Positions 44,134 to 64,000 of a stretch of 64,000 nucleotides of DNA are shown one piece after another. Made by a program: the position numbers and the translations under genes. Numbering within the stretch: position 1 is the stretch's first letter; every line of letters begins with the position of its first letter. The notes beneath the pieces are model-generated. The model was not told the DNA's origin. It ran no database searches and saw only the letters and a program-made list of their open reading frames with translations. The stretch lies in NCBI RefSeq assembly GCF_008087625.1, contig NZ_CP042997.1, forward strand, positions 1,922,001 through 1,986,000. Direction: 5' to 3'. Source of the DNA: Aquisphaera giovannonii. Its GTDB lineage: Bacteria > Planctomycetota > Planctomycetia > Isosphaerales > Isosphaeraceae.

Positions 44134-44554
44134 GGTACATCGACCTCGGGCCTCGCGGATCGGCCCGCGGCTGACGGGGAATCGGGTCGCGTGACGTTCC
44201 TTGCCCCGACAGGTCGTCGGTGGCCGGCCCGGGGTCGCACGGTCCGCGACGCCGGGGACCTTCGCGGACCCGGCCCGGGCGGGGGCCGCTTATGCAAACC
44301 CCTACAATGGTGCCGTCGGCGGCCCGGCCGTTGAGGCGTGGATTGAGTGGATGAGGATGCTGAGGAGGCGGCCGCGAGGCGAGGGAGGATTGACCGCGCG
44401 TCCCATTATGACATTGAGGGCCGGCGGCGAGGGTGACCCGGCGGCCCGGGGGGGGCGGCACCGGTCCGCTTGACGGAAACCCCTCGATAGCTATAAGATA
44501 CGATTTGCGAACGACTTAATGCGTCCTGGGCGGCCCGAGAGAGGATCCGCGGCA
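44134..44554. other. Intergenic region upstream of secA
   Basis: 421 bases between the divergent channel gene and secA. It must hold both promoters. An AT-richer stretch (CGATAGCTATAAGATACGAT) at 44484-44503 contains a TATAAG block and is the best promoter candidate for secA. No gene or repeat was seen. Confidence 0.4.
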
Positions 44555-47500: not shown

Positions 47501-48205
47501 GGCTGGAGGCCGCCTTCCCGGCGCCCTCGGCCCGCAATCCGGCGCCGACCGCCGACGAGAAGGCCGCCAGGGAGCTGGCCGAGTGGGCGGCCGCCAACCT
47601 CGGCGCCCAGGTCGATGCCGAGGACCTCGCGGAGATGCCCGCGGACGAGGCCCGCTCCGCGCTCTGCGCCGCGCTCGACGCCCGCTGCCGGCCCGAGATG
47701 CGGGAGATGGAGAAGGTCGTCATGCTCCAGATCCTGGACGCGGCCTGGATGGAGCACCTCCGCGCCATGGACCACCTGCGGAGCTCCATCGGCCTGCAGG
47801 GCTACGCCCAGATCGACCCCAAGGTCGAGTACAAGCGGAAGGGATGCGGATCTTCGCCGAGATGTGGAACGGCATCGCCGACCGGGCCACCGACCTCATC
47901 TTCCGCGTCGAGCACTTCGACCCCGAGTTCCTCTCGTACCTGGGCTCGCGGTGGAAGCTCGACCGGGCCAAGACGATCCACCAGTCCGCCGACGCCGAGG
48001 TCGCCGCGGTGGCCGCGCCGTCGTCCGGCGGCATCCGCGAGACCCAGGACGCCGCCATCGCCGGCAGCCAGCGGTCGACGGAGAAGAAGAAGGAGCCGGT
48101 CCGCAACGTTGGAAAAAAGGTGGGCCGCAACGACCCCTGCCCCTGCGGTCCGGCAAAAAGTTCAAAGCGTGCTGCATGCGGAAGCATGGCGGCGACGCAT
48201 TCTAA
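44555..48205 (+). pseudogene. secA: SecA preprotein translocase ATPase, eight apparent frameshifts
   Basis: ATG 44555 with GAGAGGA upstream. Motifs in order: MVLHGGDIAEM and TGEGKTLVATLPAYLNAL (Walker A), VHVVTVNDYLARRDAEWM, DEVDSILIDEARTPLIIS (DEAD-type Walker B), [58 protein letters not shown] and, at the end, the zinc-binding SEC-C motif ([14 protein letters not shown]). Phase changes near 45905, 46056, 46126, 46680, 46748, 46838, 47845 and 48148. Restored length is about 1216 residues, some 300 more than E. coli SecA, with the extra part in the helical region between the second ATPase domain and the C-terminus. An essential gene cannot be this broken, so sequence error is the likely cause. 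Confidence 0.93.
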
Positions 48206-48220
48206 CAGGCTGATGCAGAC

Positions 48221-48254
48221 CCCCCGCATCCTCCAGAACTCTGGGGTGCGGGGG
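48221..48254 (+). terminator. Hairpin after secA
   Basis: CCCCCGCA at 48221-48228 pairs with TGCGGGGG at 48247-48254; it follows the secA stop by 15 bases. There is no T run. Confidence 0.5.
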
Positions 48255-48520
48255 CCACCGGCCCGACGTCGGGCCTTCGCCTCGCCCCTCGGGTCGGATT
48301 CGTCCCGTCGCGTCAACGACTTAGGGAACGTCGGCGGGGCCTCCGACGATCCGGGGGTGGACGCCTTGCTGGCCCAGGCCGGGACGGGGCAGGGTCTGTG
48401 CGGCGGGGTTGGTCGACCCTGGGCACGTGAATTGCGAAATCCTGGGCATCGGGCCGGGACCGCCACCGGCCCTCCACCTCATGGATTCGACCGATACGGA
48501 ACGGGAAAGGATTCCCCGCG

Positions 48521-49893
48521 ATGCCGATCGCCCTCGATGCCGTCTACCTCGCGACGCTGCTGCTGTTCGCGCCGGTGCTGGCCTACCGCATGTTCCGATC
48601 CGGGAAGTACCGGGAAGGGTGGTCGGAGAAGTTCCTGGGCGACGCCCCGCGGCGGATCGGCGAGGGGCCGTGCCTCTGGTTCCACGCGGTGAGCGTGGGC
48701 GAGGTGCTGCTGCTCCGGCCGCTGGTCAAGGAGATGGAGAGCGCCGGCCGGGCTGGGACGTCGTGATCTCCACGACGACGACGACGGGCCTGGCCGTGGC
48801 CCGGCGGACGTTCCCGGACCTAGTCACCTTCTACGCCCCGCTCGACTTCAGCTGGGCGACGCGGCGGGCGGTCGAGCGGATCCGCCCCAGCGTGCTGGCG
48901 CTGGTGGAGCTGGAGCTCTGGCCGAACCTGATCCGCGCGGCGAAGCGGTCGGGCGCGAAGGTCGCGATCATCAACGCCCGGCTGAGCGCCCGCAGCTATC
49001 GCGGCTACCGGAGCCTCCGCGGGCCGCTGGGGGGGACGCTGCGACGCATCGACGTGGTGGCCGCCCAGGACGACGACTACGCCCGCCGGTTCGTGGAGCT
49101 GGGCGTGCCCGGCGAGCGGGTCAGCGTGACCGGATCGGTGAAGTACGACGGCCTGGAGAGCGACCGGAACAACGCGCGGACGCGGGAGCTGCGGAGGGAG
49201 CTGGGCCTCTCGCCGTCGGACCTGGTCTTCGTGGCCGGGAGCACGATGGAGGGCGAGGAGGCCGCGGCCCTGTCGGCCTACCGGGCGGCGCGTTCGCAGC
49301 ACCCGGGGCTGCGGCTGGTGCTCGTCCCCCGGCACGCGGAGCGGTTTGACGACGTGGCGGGCTGGCTCTCTCGCGAGGGGGAATCGGTCCTGAGGCGGAG
49401 CACCGGCGGGGTCCACGGCGACGAGGCGTCGGGCCCGCCCGTGATCCTGATCGACACCCTGGGCGAGCTGGCCGCGGTCTGGGGCCTGGCCGACGTGGCG
49501 TTCGTCGGCGGCAGCCTGCTGCCGGGCCGCGGGGGGCAGAACATGATGGAGCCGGCCGCGTACGGGGCCTCGGTGATGTTCGGGCCGCACACGTCCAACT
49601 TCCGCGAGCCCGTCGAGCAGCTCCTCGCCCGGGGCGCCGCGAGGCGCGTGGCCGACGCCCGGGAGCTCGGGATGAGGCTCCGCGAGGACCTGGACGACCC
49701 GGAGTCGGCCGCGGCCCGCGGCGAGGCGGGGCGGAGCTTCGTCCTGGCCCAGCACGGCGCATCCGGCCGGACCCTGGCGGAGCTGGACCGGCTCGTCGAA
49801 TCCGGCTCGTCCCCGAAAACGCTTGATATAGACCTGGACTTCCAGTTAGTCTCGGGCCAACCTAAAGGTCCAATGGGAAAGAGCGCGCCGTAG
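48521..49893 (+). pseudogene. waaA: Kdo transferase (lipid A glycosyltransferase), one frameshift
   Basis: WaaA/KdtA transfers Kdo to lipid A at the inner membrane. ATG 48521 follows GGGAAAGG. An N-terminal membrane helix (LATLLLFAPVLAYRMF) leads to GPCLWFHAVSVGE, the conserved catalytic-loop region; the phase then changes near 48751 (GGCCGGGCTGG, one G apparently missing) and continues with WDVVISTTTTTGL, FYAPLDFSW, ALVELELWPNLIRAA, VAGSTMEGEE, LVLVPRHAERF and FVGGSLLPGRGGQN. Restored length is about 457 residues, slightly above the usual 420-430. Its presence supports an outer membrane with lipopolysaccharide, as known for planctomycetes. Confidence 0.9.
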
Positions 49894-49961
49894 CCTCTCC
49901 CCTCCGGAAACCGTTCGACAGCTCGAACGGCGCCACGTCATCCAGCAGTCAGGACCCCGCG

Positions 49962-50342
49962 ATGAGCGAAAAAGAGACCGAACATCCCGCCCAGCCCCAG
50001 GGCCAGACGACCGAAGTGGTCGTGGACGACTCGAGCACGCTCCCGTCCTACTCCAACTTCTGCCGCGTGACCGCGACGCCCGAGGAGGTCATCCTCGACT
50101 TCGGGCTCAACCCCCAGCCGTTCGCGACCGGCCGCCAGGACGTGAAGGCGAACCAGCGGATCGTCATGAATTTCTACACGGCGAAGCGGCTCCTCACCGC
50201 GCTGGGCATGACGATCCAGCGTCACGAGGGGACCTTCGGCTCGATCGAGCTCGACGTGCGGCGGCGGGCCACCGGCGCCCCCCAGCAGCCGACCGCCTAT
50301 CCCCAGCCCCCCCGGCCCGGGGCGCACAACGTCGTCGAGTGA
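49962..50342 (+). CDS. DUF3467 family protein
   Basis: A 126-residue protein from ATG 49962. Residues 28-107 follow the DUF3467 pattern: YSNFCRVTATPEEVILDFGL, then ANQRIVMNFYTAKRLLTALG and an ending HEGTFGSIELD. The tail is Pro/Gln-rich. DUF3467 proteins are small cytosolic proteins of unknown role, frequent in planctomycetes and other bacteria. It follows waaA by 68 bases in the same direction and may be cotranscribed. Confidence 0.85.
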   Translation: MSEKETEHPAQPQGQTTEVVVDDSSTLPSYSNFCRVTATPEEVILDFGLNPQPFATGRQDVKANQRIVMNFYTAKRLLTALGMTIQRHEGTFGSIELDVRRRATGAPQQPTAYPQPPRPGAHNVVE

Positions 50343-50848
50343 TCCGGCGCGACCGGCCCGGGGCGACCGCCTCGCAGGGCCCGTCGCCACCCCCGGCCGG
50401 CAAGGCCGCTTCGCAAATGTCCCCCCTCATGGGGCGGCCGCCTCACACGGCCCGCCCCAGGCCCATCCGGCCTCATCCCCCCTCGCTTCCCCATCCCGCC
50501 GTCGCCCCTCGCCCGAGTCCCGACGGCCCGACCGTGGGCCGATCCGGGCCCGTCCGCGCCAACCCGGCCGGCCATGATCCGCACGATCGGGCCGCATGCC
50601 GCGGATAGTCCGATTGCGACGGGAAGGTCCGTTTCTCCCGATTTGCGGGCGGAATGGTTGATCGCGACTTCCCGGTTCGTCCGATGCAGATGGTAAGACG
50701 TGATCCGCGGGTGCGGATTCCGCCCCCATCAGGGGTCTTGCCGGATGTTTCGACTCACCAGCGAGTGGCGCTTGCGCCGATATTGTGACTTGCCGGGCAT
50801 CTCGGCCTCGGTTCAGGACGGACGAGTCCAGCGTTAGGAGATAATGGA
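50343..50848. other. Intergenic region upstream of the subtilase gene
   Basis: 506 bases with no credible gene. The part from about 50640 to 50820 is less GC-rich and probably holds the promoter of the subtilase gene; no box could be fixed. The subtilase start has TAGGAGA at 50835-50841. Confidence 0.4.
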
Positions 50849-53800
50849 ATGTCTCAGCCATCCCGACCGCGGGCGGAAAGCCCGGCCAGGCGGCGACGTG
50901 CGTTCAAGCTCGACATGCCGCTGCCGCTGGAGGACCGCTGCCTGCTCGCCCCGTACGTGTCGGACTTCCCATTCACCGCCACGTTCACCGCGGCGTCCAC
51001 GGCGACCAACGCGCTGCTGGGCACGGTGACGGTGTCCCAGAACTTCACGGGGACGGCCAACACCGCCTCGCCGATCACGTCGGTCACCGAGCTGACGCCG
51101 ATCAGCTCGTTCGGCGGGGACATCGTGCGGATCAAGGCCGGCCCGGGCGGCGACTTCGGCCAGGGGGTCTACGCGATCTCCCGAGGCGCCGGCGCGAACA
51201 CCGGGGCGATCAACCGCCCCGGCGTGATCTACCGCGTCGACCCGGCGACCGGCAAGTCCACGGTGTTCTTCGACCTGAACACCGTCATGAGCCAGATCGA
51301 CCCCAACGCCCTGAACACCGACGGCAAGAACCCCGCCGCCAACTCGCTGGGCGCGTCCACCGGGTTCGTCAACTGGTACGACATCGCGTGGGACACCGAG
51401 GGCATCATCAACGGCCAGCCGATGATGCTGGTCAGCACGGTGGACCGCTCGGATCCGGCCAAGAACGCGATCTACATGATCAACTCGAAGGGCCAGTTCG
51501 TGGGGGCCTTCGTCACTCTGACCGACGGCCAGGCCGCGACGAAGTTCACCATCAACCCGACGGGCATGGTGATCCCCGGCCCGCAGTTCCAGAACACCCT
51601 GCGGGGCCTGCTGGCCGGCAGCGGCCTGTCGGTGGCCAATTCCACGTTCGCCGCCCTCTTCTTCAACGGCAACTCGTACACGCCCGGCCAGGTCATCAGC
51701 AACAACAACGCACTCCCGAACGGGGTCACCCAGACCTCCCTGTTCGCGGGGACGATCGTCGGCATGACGACCTCGAGCGTGGACTACTTCTCGCCGGTCT
51801 ACTCGGCGTTCACCGACTTCGGGACGCCGACGGCGGGCGGCATCCCCGCGGTGGTCGGCTCCAGCGGCGTCCAGGGCCTCAATGGCGAGCTCCTGATCGG
51901 GCAGACCATCCCCAACACGACCACGTCGCTGACGCTCGACCAGCTGGGCGCGGCGAGCACCACCCTGCGGCGGTTCCAGGACATCGCCTTCGACCAGTAC
52001 GGCTACTTCTCGAACAACCTGACCCTGACCGGGACCACCACGACCAACACCACGACCACCTCCACCTCGACGACCTTCACGGTCGGCGACACCGTCTTCA
52101 GCGCGGGCAGCCTGTTCGTCTCCGACCTGGCGACCGGGCTCTCGACCACGGTGACCTCGGTGGCGGAGGGCACGATCCCGGCGGGCGTGAACGTCATCGT
52201 CCCGGTCACCGGCAACGGGCCGGTCGGCATCCAGCTCGCCGACCCGAGCCAGCCTTATGACCCGGTGAACAACCCGCTCGTCCCGATCGACTACAGCTCG
52301 GTGACGACCAACGTGCTCGGGGGCGGCAACGGCCGCATCATCCGGATCACGCCCCAGGGCATCGTGAACCAGTTCGCCGGCGGGTTCAACGTCGACCCGG
52401 CGTTCGACTCCTCGTCGTTCGTGAACTCGGAGCTGGCGATCTCGTTCTCCGCGGACGGCACGACGCTGTACGCGTCGGACGACTCGGGCATCTGGCAGTT
52501 CAAGACCACGGCCAGCCTCGCCGGGTCGACGACCGGGACCCTGATCGGGCTCAACGACCTGCGGACGCTCGGCGTCCCCTACAACGGCAGCAACAGTGCC
52601 GTGGCGGTGGTGGACACCGGCGTGGACGCCAACTCGGCGCCCTTCCGCGGCCGCGTCGCCAGGGGCAGGAATCTCTACATCCGGAACGCGCCGGGCAACC
52701 AGGACCTGGCCGCGGCCTCGGGCGGCGGCACCGGCGGCACGGGCGGCACCGGCGGCGGCGGAGGCGGCACCGGCGGCAACGGCGGCGGCACCACCGGCGG
52801 CGGCCAAGCGCTATCCAACACGGCCGACGGGCACGGCACCCCCGTGGCCGGCGTCGTGGCCCAGTTCGTCCCGCAGGCCACCATCCTGCCGGTCTCGATC
52901 TTCGCGCCGAACCTGGGCTCGGTCTCGCTCAGCTCCACGACGAGCGGCGGGACCGGTGGCAACGGCGGCACCGGCGGCAACGGCGGTGGCACGAGCAACG
53001 GCACGATCAGCCAGTTCGCCAACGCCCTGACGACCAGCCAGGTCGTCTACCAGGCGATGCAGTACCTGTCGCAGCACCCGTTCGTCAGCGACCCGATCCG
53101 CCCCGGCCGCCAGGATCGCGTGATCGCCTCGACGTGGGCCTTCGGCACTCCCGAGACCTTCGCCAGCGAGGCGCAGGCGTTCAAGGAGTATCCGCAGATC
53201 GTCATCGCCCTGAAGAACCAGCTCCATCGCCTGCGGAAGCTCGGCATCGCGGCGGTGGCGGCCGCGGGCCAGTTCGGCGCCCCGCTCGGTGCGGGGGCCG
53301 CCTCCAACACGACGGGAGGCACCGGCGGGACCGGCGGCGGCGGCGGGACCGGCGGCGGCGGCGGGACCGGCGGCGGCGGGAACAACGGCAGCACCCTCGG
53401 CGTCACCCTGGGCGGCTCCAACAACGCGGACAATTCGTCCCTTGGCGACGTCAACGGCATGGCGCTGCCGGCCATCCTGAACGAGGCCATCTCGGTGACG
53501 GGGACGTACTCGTTCCCGTACACGACCGACCCGTCGACGACCCCGAATGACCCGACGACGGGCGTGATCCCGAACCAGCTCGGGCCGGTCCTCATCTTCG
53601 GGAACAACCTGACCATCGGCGGCACGGGAGGTACGACCACCGGCGGCAACGGTGGGGCCGGCGGCGGGGCCGGCGGCGGGGCCGGCGGAGGCGGGACCGC
53701 CGCGGCCGGCGTCAACGTCAACGTCGCGGCCTTCACCGCCGCCGACTTCACGCAGTACAGCGACCGGATCCCGGGGTCCGTGAACCGCAGCGTCGCGACC

Positions 53801-55474
53801 GACTTCGCCGCGCCGGCGATCAACGTCCCGACCTTCCGCCGGACCTTCTCGCTGACGGGCGTGAGCGGCACCACCAGCACCAGCGGCGCGGGCGACCCGA
53901 ACAACCACCTGACCTTCACCCAGGTCGGGACCTCGATGTCGACCGCCATCGTGACCGGTGCGTACTCCATGGTCGCCTCGGCCCTGGACTACTGGATCAA
54001 CCTGTCCAAGGGCGCGGGCGTCACCAGCGACGCGTACCTCACCCAGCCGGTGGGAGCCAACCAGCTCACCTTCGGGAAGCACGCGATCAAGAACCTCTCG
54101 GCCTTCGACACGCAGGACGGGATCAACGGCATCCTGGCCTACACGGCCGTGCCCGCGACCGACGTCAACGACGGCGGCTCGCTCTCGACCCCGGCCCTGA
54201 TCGGCACGACCGACAACCAGTACGGCTACCGCGGGAGCACCAGCGCCCCCTCGTACGCCCGGGTGGACATCGGCAATGCCATCGCCTCCATCGAGGGCAC
54301 CGTCGCGATCAACTACCTCCTGAAGAACAAGGTCTTCCCGATCATCGACGCCAACGGCGACGGCGTGATCACGGCCCAGGAGATCCAGGGCTTCACCGAC
54401 ACCGCGCTGGCCAAGGGCATGCCCGAGGCCGGTGCCATGGCCCGGCTCCTGGGCGGGACGTCCACGTACGCCCAGGTCGACGCCGGACTCAACAACACCA
54501 CGTTCAACGAGAACCCGGACCAGCCCGCCGCCCTCCAGCGACGGTTCAACTACTTCGACTACCTGGCCAACGGCCAGCTCAAGGGCGGGATCGCCATCCA
54601 GTCCTTCAGGATGCTGGCGAACACGCTGCTGCCCCAGCCCGACTCGTACGTGGTGATCGATCGCCAGCGGGCCTCCTACAACGGCTTCCTCGTGGATCCG
54701 ACGGCCCAGCGCAACTTCGTGAACCTCCAGCACATCCTGCCGTCGTTCATGTGGGTGCCGAAGTCGGCGAGGTCCTCCTGGAAGTCGCTGGCCAAGTACT
54801 TCAACCAGTCGCCGAACCAGTTCGGCGTGGACCTCAACAAGACCCCGGGCACGTTCCTTCCGTTCTATACGCTCTTCGACGCGGTCTCCACGGCGAACGT
54901 CGTCAAGGGCCAGACGGTCGTGCAGTCCTCGAACGTCCACGGCCAGACGATCTCCATGGCCAGGTCCAACCCCGTCGTGCTCGCCCCGACGAGCTCGACC
55001 TCGACGGCCTCGACCTCGACCGCCTCCACGGCGACCGGGACCGGGACCGCCGCGACCACCCCGCCGAAGACCACGACCACCACCACGACCGGGTCGGCTT
55101 CCACCGCGACCGGCTCCGGCACCGGCTCGACCGCCTCCACGACCACCTCCGGGTCGCAGGCGGGCACGGGGACGGCCTCGACCGGCTCCGGGACCGGCTC
55201 GACCGGCACCGGGACCGGCTCGACCGGCACGGTCTCGTCGACCGGCTCGACCTCGACCGGCTCGACCTCGACCGGGACGGGGACGGCCTCCAACAACAGC
55301 GCGGCGATCATCGCGGCGATCCAGAGCCTGGCCAACCAGCAGCAGGCGGCCGCCTCGAACGCAGGCTCGACGACGTCAACCGGGACCTCCACGGGTTCCG
55401 GGGCGACGGGCGGTTCCTCGGGATCGTCCGGCTCCTCGACGACCACGAGCAAGAACGACACCTCCCAGGCGTGA
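50849..55474 (+). CDS. Large exported subtilisin-like (S8) peptidase with Gly-rich insertions
   Basis: A 1541-residue protein from ATG 50849. The N-terminus is basic and holds LPLEDRCLLAPYV, the planctomycete start motif of exported proteins. Residues about 85-560 look like a beta-propeller-type region (YAISRGAG, IYRVDPATG, DIAWDTEG). The S8 domain has Asp589 (VAVVDTGVD), His662 (DGHGTPVAG) and Ser1029 (VGTSMSTA), all present. Four Gly/Thr-rich inserts (about 619-655, 690-720, 815-850, 925-955) interrupt it at loops. A calcium-binding loop DANGDGVITAQE lies near 1170. The last 170 residues are almost only Ser, Thr, Gly and Ala and may be glycosylated or span the wall. Substrate unknown. Confidence 0.9.
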   Translation: MSQPSRPRAESPARRRRAFKLDMPLPLEDRCLLAPYVSDFPFTATFTAASTATNALLGTVTVSQNFTGTANTASPITSVTELTPISSFGGDIVRIKAGPGGDFGQGVYAISRGAGANTGAINRPGVIYRVDPATGKSTVFFDLNTVMSQIDPNALNTDGKNPAANSLGASTGFVNWYDIAWDTEGIINGQPMMLVSTVDRSDPAKNAIYMINSKGQFVGAFVTLTDGQAATKFTINPTGMVIPGPQFQNTLRGLLAGSGLSVANSTFAALFFNGNSYTPGQVISNNNALPNGVTQTSLFAGTIVGMTTSSVDYFSPVYSAFTDFGTPTAGGIPAVVGSSGVQGLNGELLIGQTIPNTTTSLTLDQLGAASTTLRRFQDIAFDQYGYFSNNLTLTGTTTTNTTTTSTSTTFTVGDTVFSAGSLFVSDLATGLSTTVTSVAEGTIPAGVNVIVPVTGNGPVGIQLADPSQPYDPVNNPLVPIDYSSVTTNVLGGGNGRIIRITPQGIVNQFAGGFNVDPAFDSSSFVNSELAISFSADGTTLYASDDSGIWQFKTTASLAGSTTGTLIGLNDLRTLGVPYNGSNSAVAVVDTGVDANSAPFRGRVARGRNLYIRNAPGNQDLAAASGGGTGGTGGTGGGGGGTGGNGGGTTGGGQALSNTADGHGTPVAGVVAQFVPQATILPVSIFAPNLGSVSLSSTTSGGTGGNGGTGGNGGGTSNGTISQFANALTTSQVVYQAMQYLSQHPFVSDPIRPGRQDRVIASTWAFGTPETFASEAQAFKEYPQIVIALKNQLHRLRKLGIAAVAAAGQFGAPLGAGAASNTTGGTGGTGGGGGTGGGGGTGGGGNNGSTLGVTLGGSNNADNSSLGDVNGMALPAILNEAISVTGTYSFPYTTDPSTTPNDPTTGVIPNQLGPVLIFGNNLTIGGTGGTTTGGNGGAGGGAGGGAGGGGTAAAGVNVNVAAFTAADFTQYSDRIPGSVNRSVATDFAAPAINVPTFRRTFSLTGVSGTTSTSGAGDPNNHLTFTQVGTSMSTAIVTGAYSMVASALDYWINLSKGAGVTSDAYLTQPVGANQLTFGKHAIKNLSAFDTQDGINGILAYTAVPATDVNDGGSLSTPALIGTTDNQYGYRGSTSAPSYARVDIGNAIASIEGTVAINYLLKNKVFPIIDANGDGVITAQEIQGFTDTALAKGMPEAGAMARLLGGTSTYAQVDAGLNNTTFNENPDQPAALQRRFNYFDYLANGQLKGGIAIQSFRMLANTLLPQPDSYVVIDRQRASYNGFLVDPTAQRNFVNLQHILPSFMWVPKSARSSWKSLAKYFNQSPNQFGVDLNKTPGTFLPFYTLFDAVSTANVVKGQTVVQSSNVHGQTISMARSNPVVLAPTSSTSTASTSTASTATGTGTAATTPPKTTTTTTTGSASTATGSGTGSTASTTTSGSQAGTGTASTGSGTGSTGTGTGSTGTVSSTGSTSTGSTSTGTGTASNNSAAIIAAIQSLANQQQAAASNAGSTTSTGTSTGSGATGGSSGSSGSSTTTSKNDTSQA

Positions 55475-55551
55475 CGTCGCGCGGCCGGTGCGTCGGGCTC
55501 CCGACGGGCCCCTCGCCCCGGCCGGCCTCGATCGCGATGGTCGGAACGACG

Positions 55552-55594
55552 AAGCCGGCGCTCGCCCCCACCGGGGCGAGGGTCGGCTTTCTTG
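55552..55594 (+). terminator. Rho-independent terminator after the subtilase gene
   Basis: Two nested stems, AAGCCG with CGGCTT and CTCGCCCC with GGGGCGAG, enclose a CACC loop and are followed by TTTCTT. The position is 77 bases after the subtilase stop. Confidence 0.8.
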
Positions 55595-55916
55595 CTGCGC
55601 AGGCGGCGACCGGGGTGGGGACTCTCTCCGGCCCTTCGTAGAGCCCTCGGGGCGACTACCCCGGGCCCCCGGCCGGCCCCGCCCACGCCTCGATCCTCGA
55701 AGGTGAGCGGGCCGGAGCGGACGGCGGGGAGGGACGGGAGGGCAGGTCTCCGAGCGGACCGCCTCTCGTGGGCGAGGGCCGATGGCACGCGGCGCGAGTC
55801 AGGCCGCAAGATATCATCGGGGGCCGAGGCCGCCCGGGGAGTCGGTCCGAGTGGTTACGCCCATCGCCGGGCCCGGGCCGGCCCAGTCCATGGCCCAATT
55901 CCGAGCCAGAGGCCGC
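55595..55916. other. Gap without credible gene
   Basis: 322 bases between the terminator and the DUF4279 gene; nothing recognisable beyond the ribosome-binding region of the next gene. Confidence 0.4.
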
Positions 55917-56393
55917 ATGACCGACGACGAGTATCCGACGTGCGCCAGGACTTATGCGACGCTCCGCGTCTACCCGGGTGACATCGACCCGGCCGCCATC
56001 ACCGATCGCCTCGGGATCGAACCCTCGAGCTGGCAACGCCGCGATGAAGCGGCTCGGCGGGCCGGCGGGCCTCCGAGGCTCGCGACCGTCAACGGCTGGT
56101 TCCTCGAGTCGCGGGGGCGGGTCGACTCGCGGGATTCACGCCGCCACATCGATTGGCTCCTCGACCAACTGGCGCCGAGGGCGGAAGCCATTCGATCCCT
56201 CCAGGAGAGGGGTTGCCGCATGGATATCTCCTGCTACTGGCTATCACGGAGTGGCCACGGGGGCCCGATCATCCCGCCGACCCAGATGCGGAGGCTGGCC
56301 GAACTCAACATCGAGCTCGGGTTCGATTTCTACGGCCCGTACGAGGAGGATGTCCGGATGGGGACGCCGGTGGCGCCGGTGCAAGGGACGTAA
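55917..56393 (+). CDS. DUF4279 family protein
   Basis: A 158-residue protein from ATG 55917 (AGAGG just upstream). It follows the DUF4279 layout: an edge strand (TYATLRVYPGDIDPAAIT), LGIEPSSWQRRDE, WFLESRG, a helix HIDWLLDQLAP, then a Cys-containing strand (MDISCYWLS) and LAELNIELGFDFYG near the end. The family is small, cytosolic and of unknown role; it is sometimes linked to toxin-immunity loci, but no toxin stands next to it here. Confidence 0.8.
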   Translation: MTDDEYPTCARTYATLRVYPGDIDPAAITDRLGIEPSSWQRRDEAARRAGGPPRLATVNGWFLESRGRVDSRDSRRHIDWLLDQLAPRAEAIRSLQERGCRMDISCYWLSRSGHGGPIIPPTQMRRLAELNIELGFDFYGPYEEDVRMGTPVAPVQGT

Positions 56394-56703
56394 ATCGGGA
56401 GGGAGGGTCTCCGCGATGCGCATCGGGGGCAGGGCCGGGCTCGCTTGCCTCCCCGGGGTCGATCAGCGGGAGGCTCAGCACCTCGATCGATGGCTGGCTC
56501 AGCGAACTCCGGGCGGCCGGGGCAGGGGGCGCGAACCGGCGCCGGCCCGGGAGACCTCGGCCGTTCCGGCCCGCTGGCATTCGCGATCCCGCGTGGACTC
56601 CGCCCGCCATCAATGAGAGGGCCCGCGAGCCGGCCTCGATGGCGGCTCGCGGGCCTGGATGGGGAGTGGCGTGAGCCCGGGGGGTACGGCCGGGGAGGGC
56701 CGG
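56394..56703. other. Gap with operon-end hairpin
   Basis: 310 bases between convergent genes; apart from the hairpin at 56620-56655 nothing is recognisable. Confidence 0.45.
56620..56655 (-). terminator. 13-bp perfect hairpin ending the M50 operon
   Basis: GGCCCGCGAGCCG at 56620-56632 pairs with 56643-56655 around a 10-base loop, 49 bases beyond the stop of the M50 gene on the minus strand. No clear T run. Confidence 0.6.
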
Positions 56704-58887
56704 TCAGATGGTGAAGTTGAACGTCTTGTTGATGAGCCGCCAGAGCCACCAGCCGAAGGTGTAGGTCCCGCCGTCGATCTTGGCGAAGCCGCGGAGCTTG
56801 GGCTGGAGCGTCAGGTCGGGGTTGGCGACCGGGATGATGACCTCGTAGACGGCGGTCTGGGGCTTGATCTGGCCCGTCTTGGGGTCGGCCTTGCCGGCGA
56901 TCTCGCCCCCCGCCATGTGGGAGAGCTCCTGGGGGATCTCGTCGTTGGACCGCTTGGCGATCTGGGAGACCTCGCTCAGGTAGGTCGTCTCGGCGCGGCC
57001 GTAGACCTTCACCCAGGCCCGGCGGCCCAGGCGGATGAGGTCGATGTCCGACTGGTCGATGATCAGGTGCGCCTCGAGCTTCTTCGGGTCGCCGACCTCG
57101 CAGAACGGCTTGCCGGGCTTGAGCCACTGGCCGACGGTCTCGGGGTGGGGCAGGCCCATCACCTGGCCGTCGCGGCCGGCGATCAGGGTCAGCTTGCCGA
57201 TCTGCTCGTTGATCTTGGCGATCACCGGCTCGAGCTCCTCGGCGGCCCGCAGGTACTGCCGCATGAGCTGGCGGTGCTCCAGCTCGAAGCTCTGGTTGTA
57301 GAAGTTGGACTTGGCGAAGTTGATGGCGTAGTCGCCCTGGCGCTGGATGAGCTCCTTCACCTTGTCGCGGTTCTCGAGCCGGGCGATGACCTGCCCTTCC
57401 TTGACTTCATCCCCGTCGCGGACGAGCAGCTCGACGAGGCGGCCCTCGCTCTCGCAGTAGATCTCCTCGGGCTTGGCGGCCGTCAACACCAGCGTCCCCT
57501 GGATCCGCAGGGGCGTCGGGATCAGAAGGATGGCGGCCACGATGGCGACGGCCGCCACCGCGAAGCCCGCCGCTCGTGCTTTCTTCACTTTGCGCAGCCT
57601 CCCGGGAGTGCGGATGAACTTGACCATTTGGTAGATGGGCATGCCGGCGAGCGGCACGATCGAGCCGGCGGCCAGCAGGTAGCTGATGGACTGGAGCTTG
57701 TACGGCTTGAGGACCTGGGACAGGAAGTAGATGATGCTGAAGGTGACGACCCATCGGTACAGGTAGCTGGCGACGGCGTAGGTCACGAACAGCCACCGGC
57801 GCGACCGCGGCAGGTAGCTCTGCACCGGGACCTCCAGCCCGAGCACCTTCTCCTGGATCAGGTAGGAGAAGAACTGCGTGCTCTTGATGCGGAGGTTGGG
57901 GATCTCCAGCCAGTCCGCCAGGACGTAGTAGCCGTCGTAGCGGAGCAGGGGATTGGCGTTGAACAGCACCGTGTTCACCGAGCAGATGAACATGGTCGCC
58001 ATGGCCAGGCTGTTGAACAGGCCGGGCTCGCTGTAGAACCAGACGAACGTGGCGATGCTCGCGAGGAAGAGCTCGACGTAGATGCCCGCCGCCGAGATCC
58101 AGATGCGGTGCCACTTGTTGGGCAGCAGCCAGCTATCGGTCACGTCGCAGTAGAGCGCGGGCGTGAGCACGAGGAAGAGCATGCCCATCTCGTGGACCTC
58201 GCCGCCGAAGTGCTTGGCGGTGAGGCCGTGGCCGAACTCGTGGATGATCTTCACGACCGCCAGGCTGCACCAGAAGCTGAAGATCGTCCACCAGTTGAAG
58301 AAGCTCTGGAACTCCGGCAGCTTGCCGTAGAAGAGGTCCCACTGGCTGATCACCAGGGTGATCGCCGCCAGCATCAGGCCGCAGCTCGCGGTGACGAAGT
58401 AGGGCGTGAAGAGCCATCGGAAGTAGGGGTACATCCCCGTGAGCAGCCGCTCGGGGTCGATGACCGGGATCTTCACGAACAGGATGTTGGCGAAGAAGGC
58501 CCAGAACTTCCGCCACTGGTTCTTCCGGCGGCGGCGGATGAGGACCTTGGCCTGGTCCGGGCTGTCGATCTGGACGATGCCCGCCTCGTGGAGCTGGGCG
58601 ACGAACCGCGTGAGGTCCTCGATGGAGATCGTCTGCGGCCGGTACTTCTTCTCGAACGCCTTCTTGACGTCCTGGAGGTTCTGCTTGCCGTCGAACTGCT
58701 GGAGCAGGAAGTACTCCTCGAGCTTGAACCGGAAGTACTTCAGCGCCAGCGGGTCCTTGACCACGTAGTGGGTCATCCCCTCGTAGAACTGGGGCTGGAC
58801 CACCAGGTCCGGGCGGAGCCTGACGCAGAGGTGCTCGGCGGCCTGCCCGTAGGGCATGACGGGGGCCTGTGACGGTGCGGCGCTCAT
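56704..58887 (-). CDS. PqqD-like / M50 metalloprotease / HlyD fusion protein
   Basis: A 727-residue membrane protein. Residues about 25-110 resemble a PqqD-type peptide-binding domain (LLQQFDGKQNLQDV, FVAQLHEAGIV). The M50 (site-2 protease) core has HEFGH at 216-220 and the matching Asp in LLRYDGYYVLADW at 318, with about eight membrane helices between 160 and 480. A HlyD-like barrel and coiled-coil part follows (about 490-690; IYCESEGRLVELLVRDGDEV). M50 enzymes cut within the membrane. It is the last gene of a three-gene minus-strand operon with two periplasmic-adaptor proteins, 118 bases after the second. Combined domains suggest a peptide-handling membrane complex; this is inference. Confidence 0.88.
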   Translation of the reverse strand: MSAAPSQAPVMPYGQAAEHLCVRLRPDLVVQPQFYEGMTHYVVKDPLALKYFRFKLEEYFLLQQFDGKQNLQDVKKAFEKKYRPQTISIEDLTRFVAQLHEAGIVQIDSPDQAKVLIRRRRKNQWRKFWAFFANILFVKIPVIDPERLLTGMYPYFRWLFTPYFVTASCGLMLAAITLVISQWDLFYGKLPEFQSFFNWWTIFSFWCSLAVVKIIHEFGHGLTAKHFGGEVHEMGMLFLVLTPALYCDVTDSWLLPNKWHRIWISAAGIYVELFLASIATFVWFYSEPGLFNSLAMATMFICSVNTVLFNANPLLRYDGYYVLADWLEIPNLRIKSTQFFSYLIQEKVLGLEVPVQSYLPRSRRWLFVTYAVASYLYRWVVTFSIIYFLSQVLKPYKLQSISYLLAAGSIVPLAGMPIYQMVKFIRTPGRLRKVKKARAAGFAVAAVAIVAAILLIPTPLRIQGTLVLTAAKPEEIYCESEGRLVELLVRDGDEVKEGQVIARLENRDKVKELIQRQGDYAINFAKSNFYNQSFELEHRQLMRQYLRAAEELEPVIAKINEQIGKLTLIAGRDGQVMGLPHPETVGQWLKPGKPFCEVGDPKKLEAHLIIDQSDIDLIRLGRRAWVKVYGRAETTYLSEVSQIAKRSNDEIPQELSHMAGGEIAGKADPKTGQIKPQTAVYEVIIPVANPDLTLQPKLRGFAKIDGGTYTFGWWLWRLINKTFNFTI

Positions 58888-59005
58888 CGGTCGGCGTTCC
58901 CTCGGGGGAAGAAGGCGGCGGGGTCACCCGCGTCGGTTCCATCGGCGGCTCGGTCCGGTCGGCGGCTCGGGCCCGCCGGGGGCGGGCCCGCGGCCTCGGC
59001 GGGGA

Positions 59006-59929
59006 TCACCGGGTGTTGGGCTCCGGGATCCGCGCGGCGATGTCGCCGTTCAGGAAGATGGTCATCTGGACCTTCAGGCCGGGGATCAGCTTGAAGTCGG
59101 GGTTGTCGAACTCGGCCCGGATCCGGCGCTTCAGCTCGCCGAGGGCCTGGACCTGGGGATCGACGAAGGTGACCTTGCCGCGGAAGGTGAGGCCCTCGAT
59201 GTCCTCACGGCCGCCCCCGGGCGAGTCGACCCGGGCGCGGATCTCCACGACCTGCCCCTCCTTGACCTTGAACGACTCCTTCAGGGGGACGTAGCCGTTG
59301 ACGGAGAGGCGGGAGAGCTTGCCCAGCTCGACCACCGCCTCGTTCGCCCGCACGCTCTCGCCGGGGTTCTTCATCCGCTTGATGACGATCCCGTCGAACG
59401 GGGCGACGATCGTGTGCTCCTTGAGGGCCTGGATCGCCATGTCGAGCTCGGCCTTGGCGACGGCCTGGGCCTCCACGGCCTCCTTGACCTGGGCCTCGGC
59501 CACCTTGAACTCGGCCTCGTGGATGGCGCGGTCCTCCTCGGAGACCATGCCGGGGCCCTTCAGCTTGATCAGCCGCTGGTCGCGGGCGACCTTGCCGATG
59601 GCGGCCTCGGAGGACGCCTTGCCCTTCTCGATGGCGCCGGTCATGTTCGCCTGGACCTGGCTCTTCTTCACCGTCAGCTCCGCCGTCTCGCGGTGCAGGT
59701 AGCCGATCGGCTTGCCCGCCAGCGCCGTGTCGCCGAGGCGGAGCTCCATCTTCTCGACGACGCCCTCGCGGAGCGCCGCGACGGAGGACTTCTCGATCCA
59801 GTCCACCGTCCCCAGCTCGTCCAGGACCAGGGCCGAGGCCGCGGCCGGGCCGTCCTGGGCGAGCGAGGCGACGGAGAGGGTGGAGGCCAGGCCGATCGCC
59901 ACGGCTCCGGCGGTCTTCATGAGCTTCAT
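59006..59929 (-). CDS. Periplasmic adaptor (HlyD/RND-MFP type)
   Basis: A 307-residue exported protein; ATG 59929 is chosen for GAGGAGGA eight bases upstream. Signal peptide at 1-25 (VAIGLASTLSVASLAQ). The lipoyl half-motifs (VAALREGVVEKMELRLGDTA and later IVAPFDGIVIKRMKNPGE) flank a helical hairpin at about 75-170, followed by a beta barrel with LTFRGKVTFVDPQ and a final LIPGLKVQMTIFL. This is the layout of membrane-fusion proteins. There is no pump gene nearby. It starts 59 bases after the upstream adaptor gene. Confidence 0.88.
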   Translation of the reverse strand: MKLMKTAGAVAIGLASTLSVASLAQDGPAAASALVLDELGTVDWIEKSSVAALREGVVEKMELRLGDTALAGKPIGYLHRETAELTVKKSQVQANMTGAIEKGKASSEAAIGKVARDQRLIKLKGPGMVSEEDRAIHEAEFKVAEAQVKEAVEAQAVAKAELDMAIQALKEHTIVAPFDGIVIKRMKNPGESVRANEAVVELGKLSRLSVNGYVPLKESFKVKEGQVVEIRARVDSPGGGREDIEGLTFRGKVTFVDPQVQALGELKRRIRAEFDNPDFKLIPGLKVQMTIFLNGDIAARIPEPNTR

Positions 59930-59988
59930 CGGGGCATTCCTCCTCGTTCGGTATGGTGTCTCGTGTCCGGAGAACTCGCGGGGCCGGC

Positions 59989-62094
59989 TCAGCGGAGGAA
60001 CGGCCAGCGGAACATGACCGACTCGTACCAGACCTGGACGACCTTGCGCAGCAGGTAGTAGGAGAGCTTCGTCTTGCCGCAGTCCACCCGGGCGCGGACC
60101 TCGGAGCCCGGCTTCAGCTCCTGGTTCCTCGAGAGGAACTCGCGGCGGACGCCCTCGTCGAAGCCCACCGTGACCTTGACCACGTGCTTCTGCTCGACGG
60201 TGTCCGCCTTGGCGGCGATCCGCCGGACGTAGCCCTCGTACTTGTGGTCGGGGTCGGTCGCCGTGATGAAGTACGCCTTCAGGGCCGAGCTGGGCGGCCT
60301 CGTCCCGGCGGCGATCTCCTTCTGCAGCTTGCTGCTGGCCGACCGGATGGGCGCCATGTCGTCGTCGGGGACGTCCACCTCCAGCACCCAGTCGGAGTCG
60401 CCGCCGATGGCCGCGATCTGGAGCAGCTCGGTGCCGTGGTCCACGGGTCTCCCCATCAGGTTCTTCTTCACCTCCCAGGTCGTGATGATGCCGTCCTGGG
60501 GGGCGCGGATGGTCAGGCTGTCGATCTGGTCCTGGATGATGTCGATCTGCTGGCTGGCCGTCTTGGACGTGATCATCGCCTCGACGAGCTGGGACTGGAT
60601 CTGGAACTTCGCGTCCTGCTCCGCCTGGCTGCTGGTCGACCTCTGCTCCTGGGCCTCGGCGATGAGCTGCTGGCTCCTCGCCTTGTCGCGGTCGCCGATG
60701 AGCTTCTTCAGCTCCTTCTCCAGCTCCTTGCTCTCCAGCCGGCAGAGGACGTCGCCCTTCTTGACGATGTCGCCGTGCTCGACGAGGACCTCGCTCACCC
60801 GGCCCTGGAGCGGGGCGTAGAGCGTCCGCCGCTCCTCGGGCAACAGCGACCCGCGGCCCTCGATCGTCAGCGTGCAGGGGACGAAGTAGAGGGCCCCGAT
60901 CAGGAGCAGGACGCCCGCCACCGCGGCCACGATCTTCGCCAGCGTCCGGCCCCGGAAGATCCGCCAGGGGGAGCCGATCGCCTTGAGGACCGGCTTGAGG
61001 AAGATCTTGTGGTGCTCGGTGGCGTTCCAGAGGGCCGTGGAGGCGTGCCGGGCGACGACCTCCGTCCGGGCGTGCATGTCCGTCGGCGCCACCTCGTCGC
61101 CGATCTGCTCCGCGACCAGGGCGCCGTAGGGGACCTTCTCCTTGGCCACGCCCTCCTTCTCGTCGCCGGGGATCTCCTCGTCGGGCTTGTGCAGGAGCGT
61201 GATGACGACGACCTTGGACCCGGACTCGTCGACGTACAGCTCCAGCGCGTCGCGGATGTCCGGGGCGAAGCCGTCGGTGTTGCCCGTGTAGACGAGGTCC
61301 TCGCCCGACCGGATCACGACCTTGCACAGCTTCGTCAGGTCGCGGACCAGGTTGGACCGCTGCTCGACCACCTCCTGGCCGCTCACCGCCTCCACCATCG
61401 TCCGGCCGGAGATCTTCAGGGCCACGCTCAGGCGGTCGCAGCCGACGAGCCGCTTGCCGTCGTTGACCACCGCGTAGGCCGTCTCCTTCAGGTCGAGCGA
61501 GCCGTGGACGTGGTGCGTGAAGCCCTCGAGCTGGTTCCAGAGCCGCTGCTGCGACATCATCTGCCGCATCTGGCGGTTCTTGAGGTAGTTCCCGGCCAGG
61601 TCGCAGAGGTCGCCGACGAACCGGAGCGTGCTCTTCCGCTGGGCCGCCTGGCGGTTGGGATCCAGGAGGATCTCCAGGAGCCCCACGACCTGCTTGTCCA
61701 CGATCAGCGGGGCGATGATCAGGGCGAACCCGGTCGGGTTGTAGGCCTGCGGCACCCCCTCGATCACGGCGCCCGGGGGGATGATCTGGGCCTGCGAGGC
61801 CTGGATCATGCAGCCGAGCAGCGCGTCGTGCGGCGGCGTCGCGACCCGGCCGTCCATCAGGCCCGTCTGGGCGAACTCGACCTGGTACTGGAGCCGGAGC
61901 CCGCCCCGCCCGTCCAGCAGCCAGAAGGCGCCGCCGGAGGCGGCCACCGCCGCGACCGCCCGGTTCAGGAACTCCACGTAGAATTCCGCCGGCTGCACGT
62001 CCGACTCCGCCAGGTCGGCGATCTCGGCCACCAGCTTGCGGATCTGGGTCTTCGTCTGCTCGAGCAGATCGGCATCCACGGTTTCTTGCGGCAT
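59989..62094 (-). CDS. GAF-GAF-TM-HlyD sensor/adaptor protein
   Basis: A 701-residue protein and first gene of the operon. ATG 62094 follows AGGTG. Two GAF domains (about 35-175 and 190-360; the second includes LDLKETAYAVVNDGKRLVGC) lie on the cytosolic side, one membrane helix at about 385-407 (IVAAVAGVLLLIGALYFVPC), then a HlyD-type adaptor part with lipoyl halves (LYAPLQGRVSEVLVEHGDIV; IRAPQDGIITTWEV) and a long coiled coil. GAF domains bind small ligands, so the adaptor might be gated by a cytosolic signal. Cytosolic sensing joined to a periplasmic adaptor in one chain is unusual. Confidence 0.88.
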   Translation of the reverse strand: MPQETVDADLLEQTKTQIRKLVAEIADLAESDVQPAEFYVEFLNRAVAAVAASGGAFWLLDGRGGLRLQYQVEFAQTGLMDGRVATPPHDALLGCMIQASQAQIIPPGAVIEGVPQAYNPTGFALIIAPLIVDKQVVGLLEILLDPNRQAAQRKSTLRFVGDLCDLAGNYLKNRQMRQMMSQQRLWNQLEGFTHHVHGSLDLKETAYAVVNDGKRLVGCDRLSVALKISGRTMVEAVSGQEVVEQRSNLVRDLTKLCKVVIRSGEDLVYTGNTDGFAPDIRDALELYVDESGSKVVVITLLHKPDEEIPGDEKEGVAKEKVPYGALVAEQIGDEVAPTDMHARTEVVARHASTALWNATEHHKIFLKPVLKAIGSPWRIFRGRTLAKIVAAVAGVLLLIGALYFVPCTLTIEGRGSLLPEERRTLYAPLQGRVSEVLVEHGDIVKKGDVLCRLESKELEKELKKLIGDRDKARSQQLIAEAQEQRSTSSQAEQDAKFQIQSQLVEAMITSKTASQQIDIIQDQIDSLTIRAPQDGIITTWEVKKNLMGRPVDHGTELLQIAAIGGDSDWVLEVDVPDDDMAPIRSASSKLQKEIAAGTRPPSSALKAYFITATDPDHKYEGYVRRIAAKADTVEQKHVVKVTVGFDEGVRREFLSRNQELKPGSEVRARVDCGKTKLSYYLLRKVVQVWYESVMFRWPFLR

Positions 62095-62427: not shown

Positions 62428-64000
62428 TCAGCGGATGAGCGTGATCGGCACGGGGCGGAGGTTCATGATCGTCTGGAAGGCCGTGACGAGCTTCGCCTTC
62501 CGCTGATCGAGGGTGCCGATGCACCACTTGAAGCCGTTGGTCGGGTCGCTGGCGCTGGAGGGGAAGACGGTGCCGCCGACGGCGGAGATGCTCTGGAGGA
62601 GGGAGACGGAGGAGGTCAGGGTGGACGACGGGGTCTCGAAGATGCCGCCGAACGCCAGGCAATGGATGGTGACCGGCTTCCCCAGCGCCCCGAAGCCGGG
62701 ATAGCCCTGATTGGGCGTGAACGGGGTGATCCCGGTGCCGGTCACCGGGTTGCCGCTGTTGTCGTTGCAGATGTTCTGGATCGTCTGGAGCAGGGTCGTC
62801 TGGTTGTAGCCCGCGGACGCCAGCGGCTGCCCCGGCTGGATGCGGTAATAGCTGTCGTAGTACGAGCCGGCGTAGAAGCCGTTGGACGGCGTGGAGCCCT
62901 GGTTGGCCATCCCGTCGGTCTCGTAGATGATCAGCCGCTGGGCGCCGACGCGGCCGCCGCCCCCCGTGCCCGGGTAGCTGCCGTCGTCGAGCGTGCTGAG
63001 CACCGGGCTGTTGCTGAACTGGTTGTAGGCGAGCATGAAGCCGTAGCTCGAGGCCGTGTTGGAGCACCAGTCGCCGAAGGCCCGCGGCGTCTGGGAGCCG
63101 TTGGCGTCCCAGGGGCGGACGTCGGAGGCGCCGCTGTTGGGCGGGATCCAGAGCGAGTTGATCATCGGCTGCATGTTGTTCGTCAGGCTGTACTGCGCGA
63201 CGTTGAACGCCCCCGTCCCGCTGGCGCCCCCCGAGTAGAGGGGGCGGTTGAACAGGATCATCGAGACGAGGTCGTTGGGGTGGTTGTTCTGGATGTCCTG
63301 GAGCGCCTGGCCGATGCCGATCTTCATCGGGTACATGGAGATGTCGTGGGCCGTCCCGGGCAGGATGCCCGTGTCCGACATGAACTGGACCATGGTCATC
63401 GGGCCGAACCAGAGCCGGTGCCTGGGCCGCTGGGGGTTGTCGTCGTAGGCCATGTAGCGGGTGTCGCTGCCGGACGGCGGCGAGCTGATCTTGACGGTCC
63501 CGAAGGTGTAATCGGGGCCGTAGCTCATCGCCGCGTCCCCAGGCGAATGGATGCTGCCGGACGGATCCCGCCAGGAGCCGATTACGTAGTCGATGTATTC
63601 CTTCCAGAACCGCTGGTTCGCGTCGGTGATCGCCGTGTTCAGGGTCGTGTGCGTGTACGCCGAGGCCGGCACGTCGGTCGGGATCTGGTCGTAGTAGAGG
63701 ATGTTCCCGGAGCGGAGCTGGGGCGGGAACGGGTTGGGGCCGGTGTTCTTGATCCAGGCGAGGATCGCCTTGTAGTTGATCGTGTAGTTGCCCGGCGGGT
63801 CGTTCCAGGCGCCCGACGAGCTCCAGAGCTTCGTGTTGTTGGTGGTGCCGAAGAAATTCTGCCGCCAGTCGTTGGTCGGATCCGGCGGCCAGATGAAGAA
63901 CGTCTTGCCCCAGTACCGCGGCCCCTGGACGTAGCCCTTCAGCGACGCGCCCTGGATGGCCTTGTAGCCGTTGGCCTCGAAGCCCGAGTTCCTGGTCGTG
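62428..64000 (-). CDS. Large exported Tad-like protein (partial, 5' end outside)
   Basis: The minus-strand frame is open from the window's right edge to a stop at 62428, giving at least 524 residues. The GTG at 63672 is not a real start, since the coding sense continues upstream (SLKGYVQGPRYWGKTFFIWP, NDWRQNFFGTTNN). The C-terminal part has strands typical of a von Willebrand A-type fold (LVSMILFNRPLY; RLIIYETDGMANQ; VTIHCLAFGG), as in TadG-related pilus-assembly proteins of planctomycetes. The N-terminal membrane anchor expected for that family is outside the window. Rich in Asn, Ser, Tyr and Gly. Confidence 0.7.
   Translation of the reverse strand, partial: TTRNSGFEANGYKAIQGASLKGYVQGPRYWGKTFFIWPPDPTNDWRQNFFGTTNNTKLWSSSGAWNDPPGNYTINYKAILAWIKNTGPNPFPPQLRSGNILYYDQIPTDVPASAYTHTTLNTAITDANQRFWKEYIDYVIGSWRDPSGSIHSPGDAAMSYGPDYTFGTVKISSPPSGSDTRYMAYDDNPQRPRHRLWFGPMTMVQFMSDTGILPGTAHDISMYPMKIGIGQALQDIQNNHPNDLVSMILFNRPLYSGGASGTGAFNVAQYSLTNNMQPMINSLWIPPNSGASDVRPWDANGSQTPRAFGDWCSNTASSYGFMLAYNQFSNSPVLSTLDDGSYPGTGGGGRVGAQRLIIYETDGMANQGSTPSNGFYAGSYYDSYYRIQPGQPLASAGYNQTTLLQTIQNICNDNSGNPVTGTGITPFTPNQGYPGFGALGKPVTIHCLAFGGIFETPSSTLTSSVSLLQSISAVGGTVFPSSASDPTNGFKWCIGTLDQRKAKLVTAFQTIMNLRPVPITLIR

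Follow-up and report, generated by a model that had tools for sequence, protein, structure and literature searches.

A three-gene operon of Aquisphaera giovannonii as the larger part of a probable, little-studied bacterial export system

An operon that joins three HlyD-type adaptor modules to a membrane protease and holds neither an ABC nor an RND transporter raises the question of what such an assembly could be for. The operon in question lies at positions 56704-62094 of a 64,000-nucleotide stretch of the Aquisphaera giovannonii genome (contig NZ_CP042997.1, positions 1,922,001 to 1,986,000; this whole stretch is called the window below, and positions refer to it unless stated otherwise), and a first-pass annotation had described its genes, all on the minus strand, as a GAF-HlyD sensor, a periplasmic adaptor and a PqqD-like/M50/HlyD protease, a description that stands. 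We conclude that these three genes probably make up the greater part of a little-studied bacterial export system and, with a probability of about 0.62, that the trio forms the envelope part of a type-I-like exporter powered by a secondary SecA (SecA2), in which an RRE domain reads and the M50 protease cuts an N-terminal LE[PDS]Rx[LVM][LF] leader of the clients.

Architecture and conservation of the operon

The first gene of the operon (59989-62094) encodes an N-terminal, cytosolic GAF domain (E 4.5e-7), a single membrane helix at about residues 385-405 and then a periplasmic HlyD adaptor (HlyD_3, E 3.8e-13), while a second GAF domain suspected by eye behind the first has no Pfam match. It is followed by a gene for a secreted adaptor of the HlyD/RND_mfp type (59006-59929; HlyD_D23, E 1.7e-17), which starts with a signal-like sequence and scores above the cut-off of TIGR01730 (96.5 bits), and by one for a 727-residue protein (56704-58887) that combines a PqqD-like RRE domain with matches to Peptidase_M50 (E 3.3e-9) and HlyD_D23 (E 5.2e-8). 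The intergenic gaps of 59 and 118 bp are consistent with an operon.

That the trio is a genuine unit, far from a chance arrangement, is indicated by its conservation, since each of the 59 related genomes that were searched has the M50 protein and the gene order (GAF-HlyD, HlyD, M50) is kept in every family locus with enough flanking sequence. A search with an M50 profile furthermore gave 80 proteobacterial loci, a set with frequencies that are not unbiased because it is ordered by resemblance to a single SecA2-type protein; of these loci 77 hold GAF-HlyD, 75 hold SecA2 as the adjacent gene and 59 hold HlyD, the commonest order being GAF-HlyD, M50, SecA2, HlyD. The constant neighbours of the module are SecA2, DUF3467, LE[PDS]R-tagged proteins and TolC, genes for the last standing beside it in several related loci. 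Radical SAM and small precursor genes, which had also been envisaged as possible constant neighbours, did not recur, and an operon for ribosomally synthesized and post-translationally modified peptides (RiPPs) was rejected on this ground; ABC transporters are likewise missing among the recurrent neighbours of related loci.

The module is not new in itself. A computational study of 2015 (Kamneva, Poudel and Ward; PMC4452313) had already described the same trio, together with a secondary SecA_DEAD protein, as a conserved module, although the first-pass annotation knew of no characterised system with this set, and there SecA was proposed to take the place of the ABC ATPase, a pore role was suggested for the M50 protein, and cases of an unlinked secondary SecA were also reported. 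The module described there likewise has the three proteins together and a SecA without SecA_SW in the genome; SecA2 is however unlinked in the genome of the window, and PMC4452313 names no substrate, DUF3467 or leader-binding domain. No published link of the module to LEPR-XLL, DUF3467 or an RRE was found in a search that left subscription papers and preprints outside, and PMC3482391, checked for HlyD, M50 and type I terms, held nothing relevant. What is new here is the probable cargo and mechanism, the gene module having been published with its function unassigned. The 2015 module came without a substrate and the LEPR-XLL giants are annotated without an export route, and when they are put together the result is a specific machine open to testing, whose clients the leader motif would mark.

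The protease subunit and its candidate cargo

The 727-residue protein was modelled with AlphaFold2 as a single chain (36 sequences; mean predicted local distance difference test score, pLDDT, 82), the structure alignments comprising the window sequences and related loci, with closer planctomycete homologues left out. For residues 20-107 (58567-58830) the model predicts the three-stranded sheet and winged helices of an RRE, aligning with leader-bound TbiB1 (5v1v) at Z 11.0 and a root-mean-square deviation of 2.3 over 84 of 88 residues and with leader-bound TfuB1 (6jx3) at Z 10.7. An independent sequence profile points to PqqD (3g2b, E 0.0017) and again to TfuB1 (E 0.006); the domain stays below the Pfam cut-off for PqqD (17.6 against 23.4 bits). 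The peptide-binding, PqqD-like domain that had been ascribed to the protease is thus supported by predicted fold and profile alike. The lasso peptide RREs and PqqD appear to share this fold with the module, but its RRE is covalently joined to a membrane protease and an adaptor, and its ligand is putative.

Residues 195-328 of the model align with an orthologue of RseP (Z 10.1, 131 residues), and the C-terminal part matches HlyD, EmrA, MacA and LipC, the adaptor domain at residues 455-712 (56752-57525) being found by domain and profile searches as well. In the zinc motif HEFGH (residues 216-220, 58228-58242), for which the numbering His216/Glu217 given earlier is correct, H, E and H are invariant in three alignments, and in the second motif, NPLLRYD (residues 312-318, 57934-57954; NPLLRYDG with the next residue), N312, P313, L314 and D318 are invariant in two. 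HExxH and NxNPxxxxD share a reading frame in every one of 139 loci, and this retention of the catalytic pair argues for proteolysis over a mere pore; one E. coli plasmid variant reads N-A-S-P instead of N-x-N-P. The PqqD-like and M50 region (residues 42-413) furthermore aligns with the daptide HExxH protease (NF041824) and with YydH/LiaK (NF058609), but the M50 protein scores 184.3 bits against the 300-bit equivalog cut-off of the daptide model, is unlike both families fused to HlyD, and has clients that are apparently large proteins. The protease subunit probably reads a short N-terminal LEPR/LEDR tag and removes it.

The clients themselves are suggested by what stands beside the module. Annotated plasmids carry giant genes of 7-38 kb next to it, along with DUF3467 and TolC genes; one of these giants is annotated as a 'LEPR-XLL domain-containing protein', and in each of the five giants that were checked a LEPR-like motif stands at the start (LEPRVLL, FEPRVLL, IEPRILL, LESRQLF and LEPRMLF). 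The LEPR-8K model (NF012209) is matched above its curated cut-off in 39 of 42 module genomes as against 1 of 14 control genomes. Among 149 Rhodobacteraceae genomes, an even and unbiased sample, the M50 protein was found in 22, LEPR-8K in 21 and both in 17, the tag being present in 17 of 22 genomes with the module and 4 of 127 without it (Fisher p=1.4e-14), and in all 16 with a strong M50 match. Of the tagged giants in this family 16 of 20 lie at most 10 kb from an M50 gene, and three genomes (G060, G069 and G137) have two modules each with a giant beside each module. The open frames of tagged giants reach about 17,800 residues. Within the module loci, the motif is found in the first 140 residues of 13 of 37 open reading frames of at least 1500 residues with a visible start, compared with 2 of 1210 frames of 400-1100 residues.

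In planctomycetes the tag is of the same type as LEPR-XLL/LEPR-8K on the giants adjoining the module, but it often reads LEDR or LEER and mostly stays below the cut-off of that model. A profile of 19 planctomycete N-termini was run on 199 genomes of the phylum of the window, Planctomycetota, and at E up to 0.01 it matched in 23 of 46 genomes with the M50 protein and 4 of 153 without it (p=1e-13), or in 12 of 34 against the same 4 of 153 when the own class, the source of the training sequences, was excluded (p=2e-7). The genome of the window has 36 matches at E up to 0.1, some of which are training sequences, and among a further 20 matches examined 18 had the motif and an N-terminal stretch that is basic and not hydrophobic, so the hydrophobic core of a signal peptide is lacking there. 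The candidate cargo in the window is a 1541-residue protein (50849-55474, plus strand) with LEDRCLL close to its N-terminus (50927-50947) and subtilase-like DTG, HGT and GTSM motifs, for which no Pfam S8 match was obtained. The earlier suggestion of a complex that binds, cuts and hands over peptides or membrane proteins comes close to our best reading as regards the predicted RRE fold and the intact protease, but the clients are likely large LEPR/LEDR-tagged proteins.

Plasmids of Enterobacteriaceae (E. coli, Citrobacter and Kosakonia; loci L142 and L144) carry a related set with no SecA2 nearby, in the order giant cadherin/Ig-like protein with a LESRQLF or LEPRMLF tag, TolC, HlyD, HlyD and M50-HlyD. 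A LEPR-XLL giant has also been mentioned in Vibrio without this module (PMC10868602).

A SecA-type motor and the readings compared

The genome of the window has two SecA genes. SecA2 of the module type is encoded outside the window (2113312-2115255 of the contig), about 133 kb from the trio, and has SecA_DEAD, preprotein cross-linking and P-loop domains with SecA_SW not matched, whereas the canonical SecA (44519-46909, plus strand), which is near the trio in many relatives, keeps SecA_SW and is not the SecA2 of the module. SecA2 orthologues are found in nearly all relatives, genomes G016 and G037 appearing to be without one, and in one related family (loci L071-L073) SecA2 stands directly upstream of GAF-HlyD. 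In the Rhodobacteraceae sample at least two SecA genes were counted in 17 of 17 genomes with both M50 and LEPR-8K, in none of 5 with M50 and no LEPR-8K and in 12 of 127 without M50, a count that takes any SecA_DEAD match and may be inflated by fragmented genes. The description 'without a pump' is right for the operon, which holds no ABC or RND transporter, but misleading for the module, which is not pump-less because a secondary SecA, separated from the trio in this family only, would be its motor.

The neighbourhood of secA, DUF3467, the LEDR protein and the trio (44519-62094 in the window, with loci of at least 11 related genomes) looks conserved across the family. The canonical SecA is out of frame at about residues 468-540, leaving an open frame of about 800 residues against about 1230 in relatives, and because the cell is expected to depend on secA, this is likely an error of sequencing or assembly. 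The unlinked SecA2 has directly upstream of it a gene for a membrane protein of 372 residues that matches FtsQ weakly (E 0.002; L034:2856-3977, minus strand).

In the proposed exporter, the step order of which we infer, the RRE domain of the M50 protein would bind the leader in the cytosol, the unfolded polypeptide would be pushed by the secondary SecA, and the M50 protein, as a site-2-type protease, would remove the leader at the membrane. Together with an outer-membrane TolC-type channel, the three HlyD modules would form the periplasmic conduit, GAF-HlyD may sense a cytosolic signal or organise assembly, and DUF3467 may have an accessory role or help in targeting. A proteobacterial module would usually serve one adjacent giant protein, and in the lineage of the window a single module seems to handle dozens of LE[DP]R proteins whose genes are spread over the genome. 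That this amounts to a distinct two-membrane secretion system, in which SecA2 and an RRE-guided protease-adaptor export LE[PD]R proteins, giants among them, and to a general planctomycete route for dozens of proteins, is a tentative proposition to which we give slightly less than even odds. Type I secretion (HlyB-HlyD-TolC) shares the HlyD-type adaptors, very large clients and, in several related loci, TolC, but the module has no ABC transporter among its conserved genes, a client tag at the N-terminus and a SecA-type motor. The accessory Sec system of Gram-positive bacteria likewise has a second SecA beside the canonical one, but the SecA2 of the module lacks SecA_SW and is coupled to HlyD/TolC-type parts of a two-membrane envelope. 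If true, the proposal would give very large surface or extracellular proteins that have no ordinary signal peptide a possible way out of the cells of planctomycetes and many proteobacteria, and an RRE, otherwise known from peptide natural products, would serve as a reader of secretion signals.

According to the model put forward in PMC4452313, the system is likewise SecA2-energised and type-I-like, but the M50 protein is mainly an inner-membrane pore replacing the ABC transporter and no leader is processed. The adaptor and SecA2 parts that this requires are present; a pore would however have no need for the two catalytic motifs kept in every locus, and the N-terminal domain is predicted to match leader-binding RREs, which makes such a role improbable. 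Alternatively, canonical SecA and SecYEG may in this family move tagged proteins over the inner membrane, the trio acting later as leader peptidase and periplasmic adaptor with SecA2 as an auxiliary. This notion agrees with the position of canonical secA, which in at least 12 family genomes is separated from the trio by 8-20 kb where SecA2 is remote, and with the existence of SecA2-free variants (E. coli and Kosakonia plasmids, five Rhodobacteraceae and G037), both of which also speak against a SecA2-powered exporter, but it is rendered unlikely by the facts that SecA2 is kept in nearly all relatives and adjoins the trio in other families, that the second SecA tracks the tag in Rhodobacteraceae, and that no hydrophobic core is seen in the N-termini of tagged proteins.

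A ligand-gated complex without a transporter, as the first-pass annotation had read the operon, or a RiPP variant of it in which small peptides are matured and passed on, could account for the RRE-like domain and for the M50 part being nearest to the daptide and YydH/LiaK maturation proteases, but the score below the daptide equivalog cut-off and the association with giant proteins and SecA2 make it very unlikely. The chance is slimmer still that the operon serves regulated intramembrane proteolysis, with M50 cutting a membrane-bound regulator and GAF as the input, for even though the protease region is predicted to resemble RseP, neither an anti-sigma nor a sigma factor is found among the recurrent neighbours, and three adaptor modules, SecA2 and TolC speak for transport. 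The preferred reading, SecA2-powered export of leader-tagged clients, has difficulties of its own besides the remote or missing SecA2 and the possibly inflated SecA counts. The whole case is built on computed association and architecture, the TolC evidence is drawn from related loci and not from the genome of the window, and in 23 of the 46 Planctomycetota that have the module the tag profile finds nothing at E up to 0.01. Furthermore, the planctomycete tag profile was trained on the candidate cargo of the window, which itself, at E up to 1 and also by hmmscan, gives no match to NF012209 (cut-off 17 bits), a cut-off that two further proteins encoded in this genome exceed.

DUF3467 and other neighbours in the window

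The DUF3467 gene (49962-50342, plus strand; PF11950, E 5e-21) and that of the LEDRCLL protein follow shortly beyond the operon, on the opposite strand, and about nine related loci have their orthologues close to the trio. DUF3467 is likewise adjacent to the module in proteobacterial loci, and in the family with SecA2 upstream of GAF-HlyD it is directly downstream of M50, followed in L072 and L073 by a LESRQLL or LEARQLL protein. Across Planctomycetota it occurs in 28 of 46 genomes with the M50 protein and 12 of 153 without (p=4e-13, or p=3e-7 with the own class excluded). Its predicted fold is beta-beta-beta-alpha, with no PDB match by sequence and no significant PDB match by fold (best Z 5.8, to COMM domains; Foldseek E > 0.2). 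A role as a SecB-like chaperone was considered and found unsupported, with no SecB among the fold-search rows. A second DUF3467 gene is found in the same genome about 4 kb before the window (1917895-1918161 of the contig).

Between the LEDR protein and the operon lies a gene for a DUF4279 protein (55782-56393, plus strand; E 2e-17), which was not recurrent among the neighbours examined. A protein of at least 523 residues (62428-63999), which has no Pfam or NCBIfam match and is vWA/Tad-like in appearance, is encoded on the minus strand directly upstream of the operon and thus in the same orientation.
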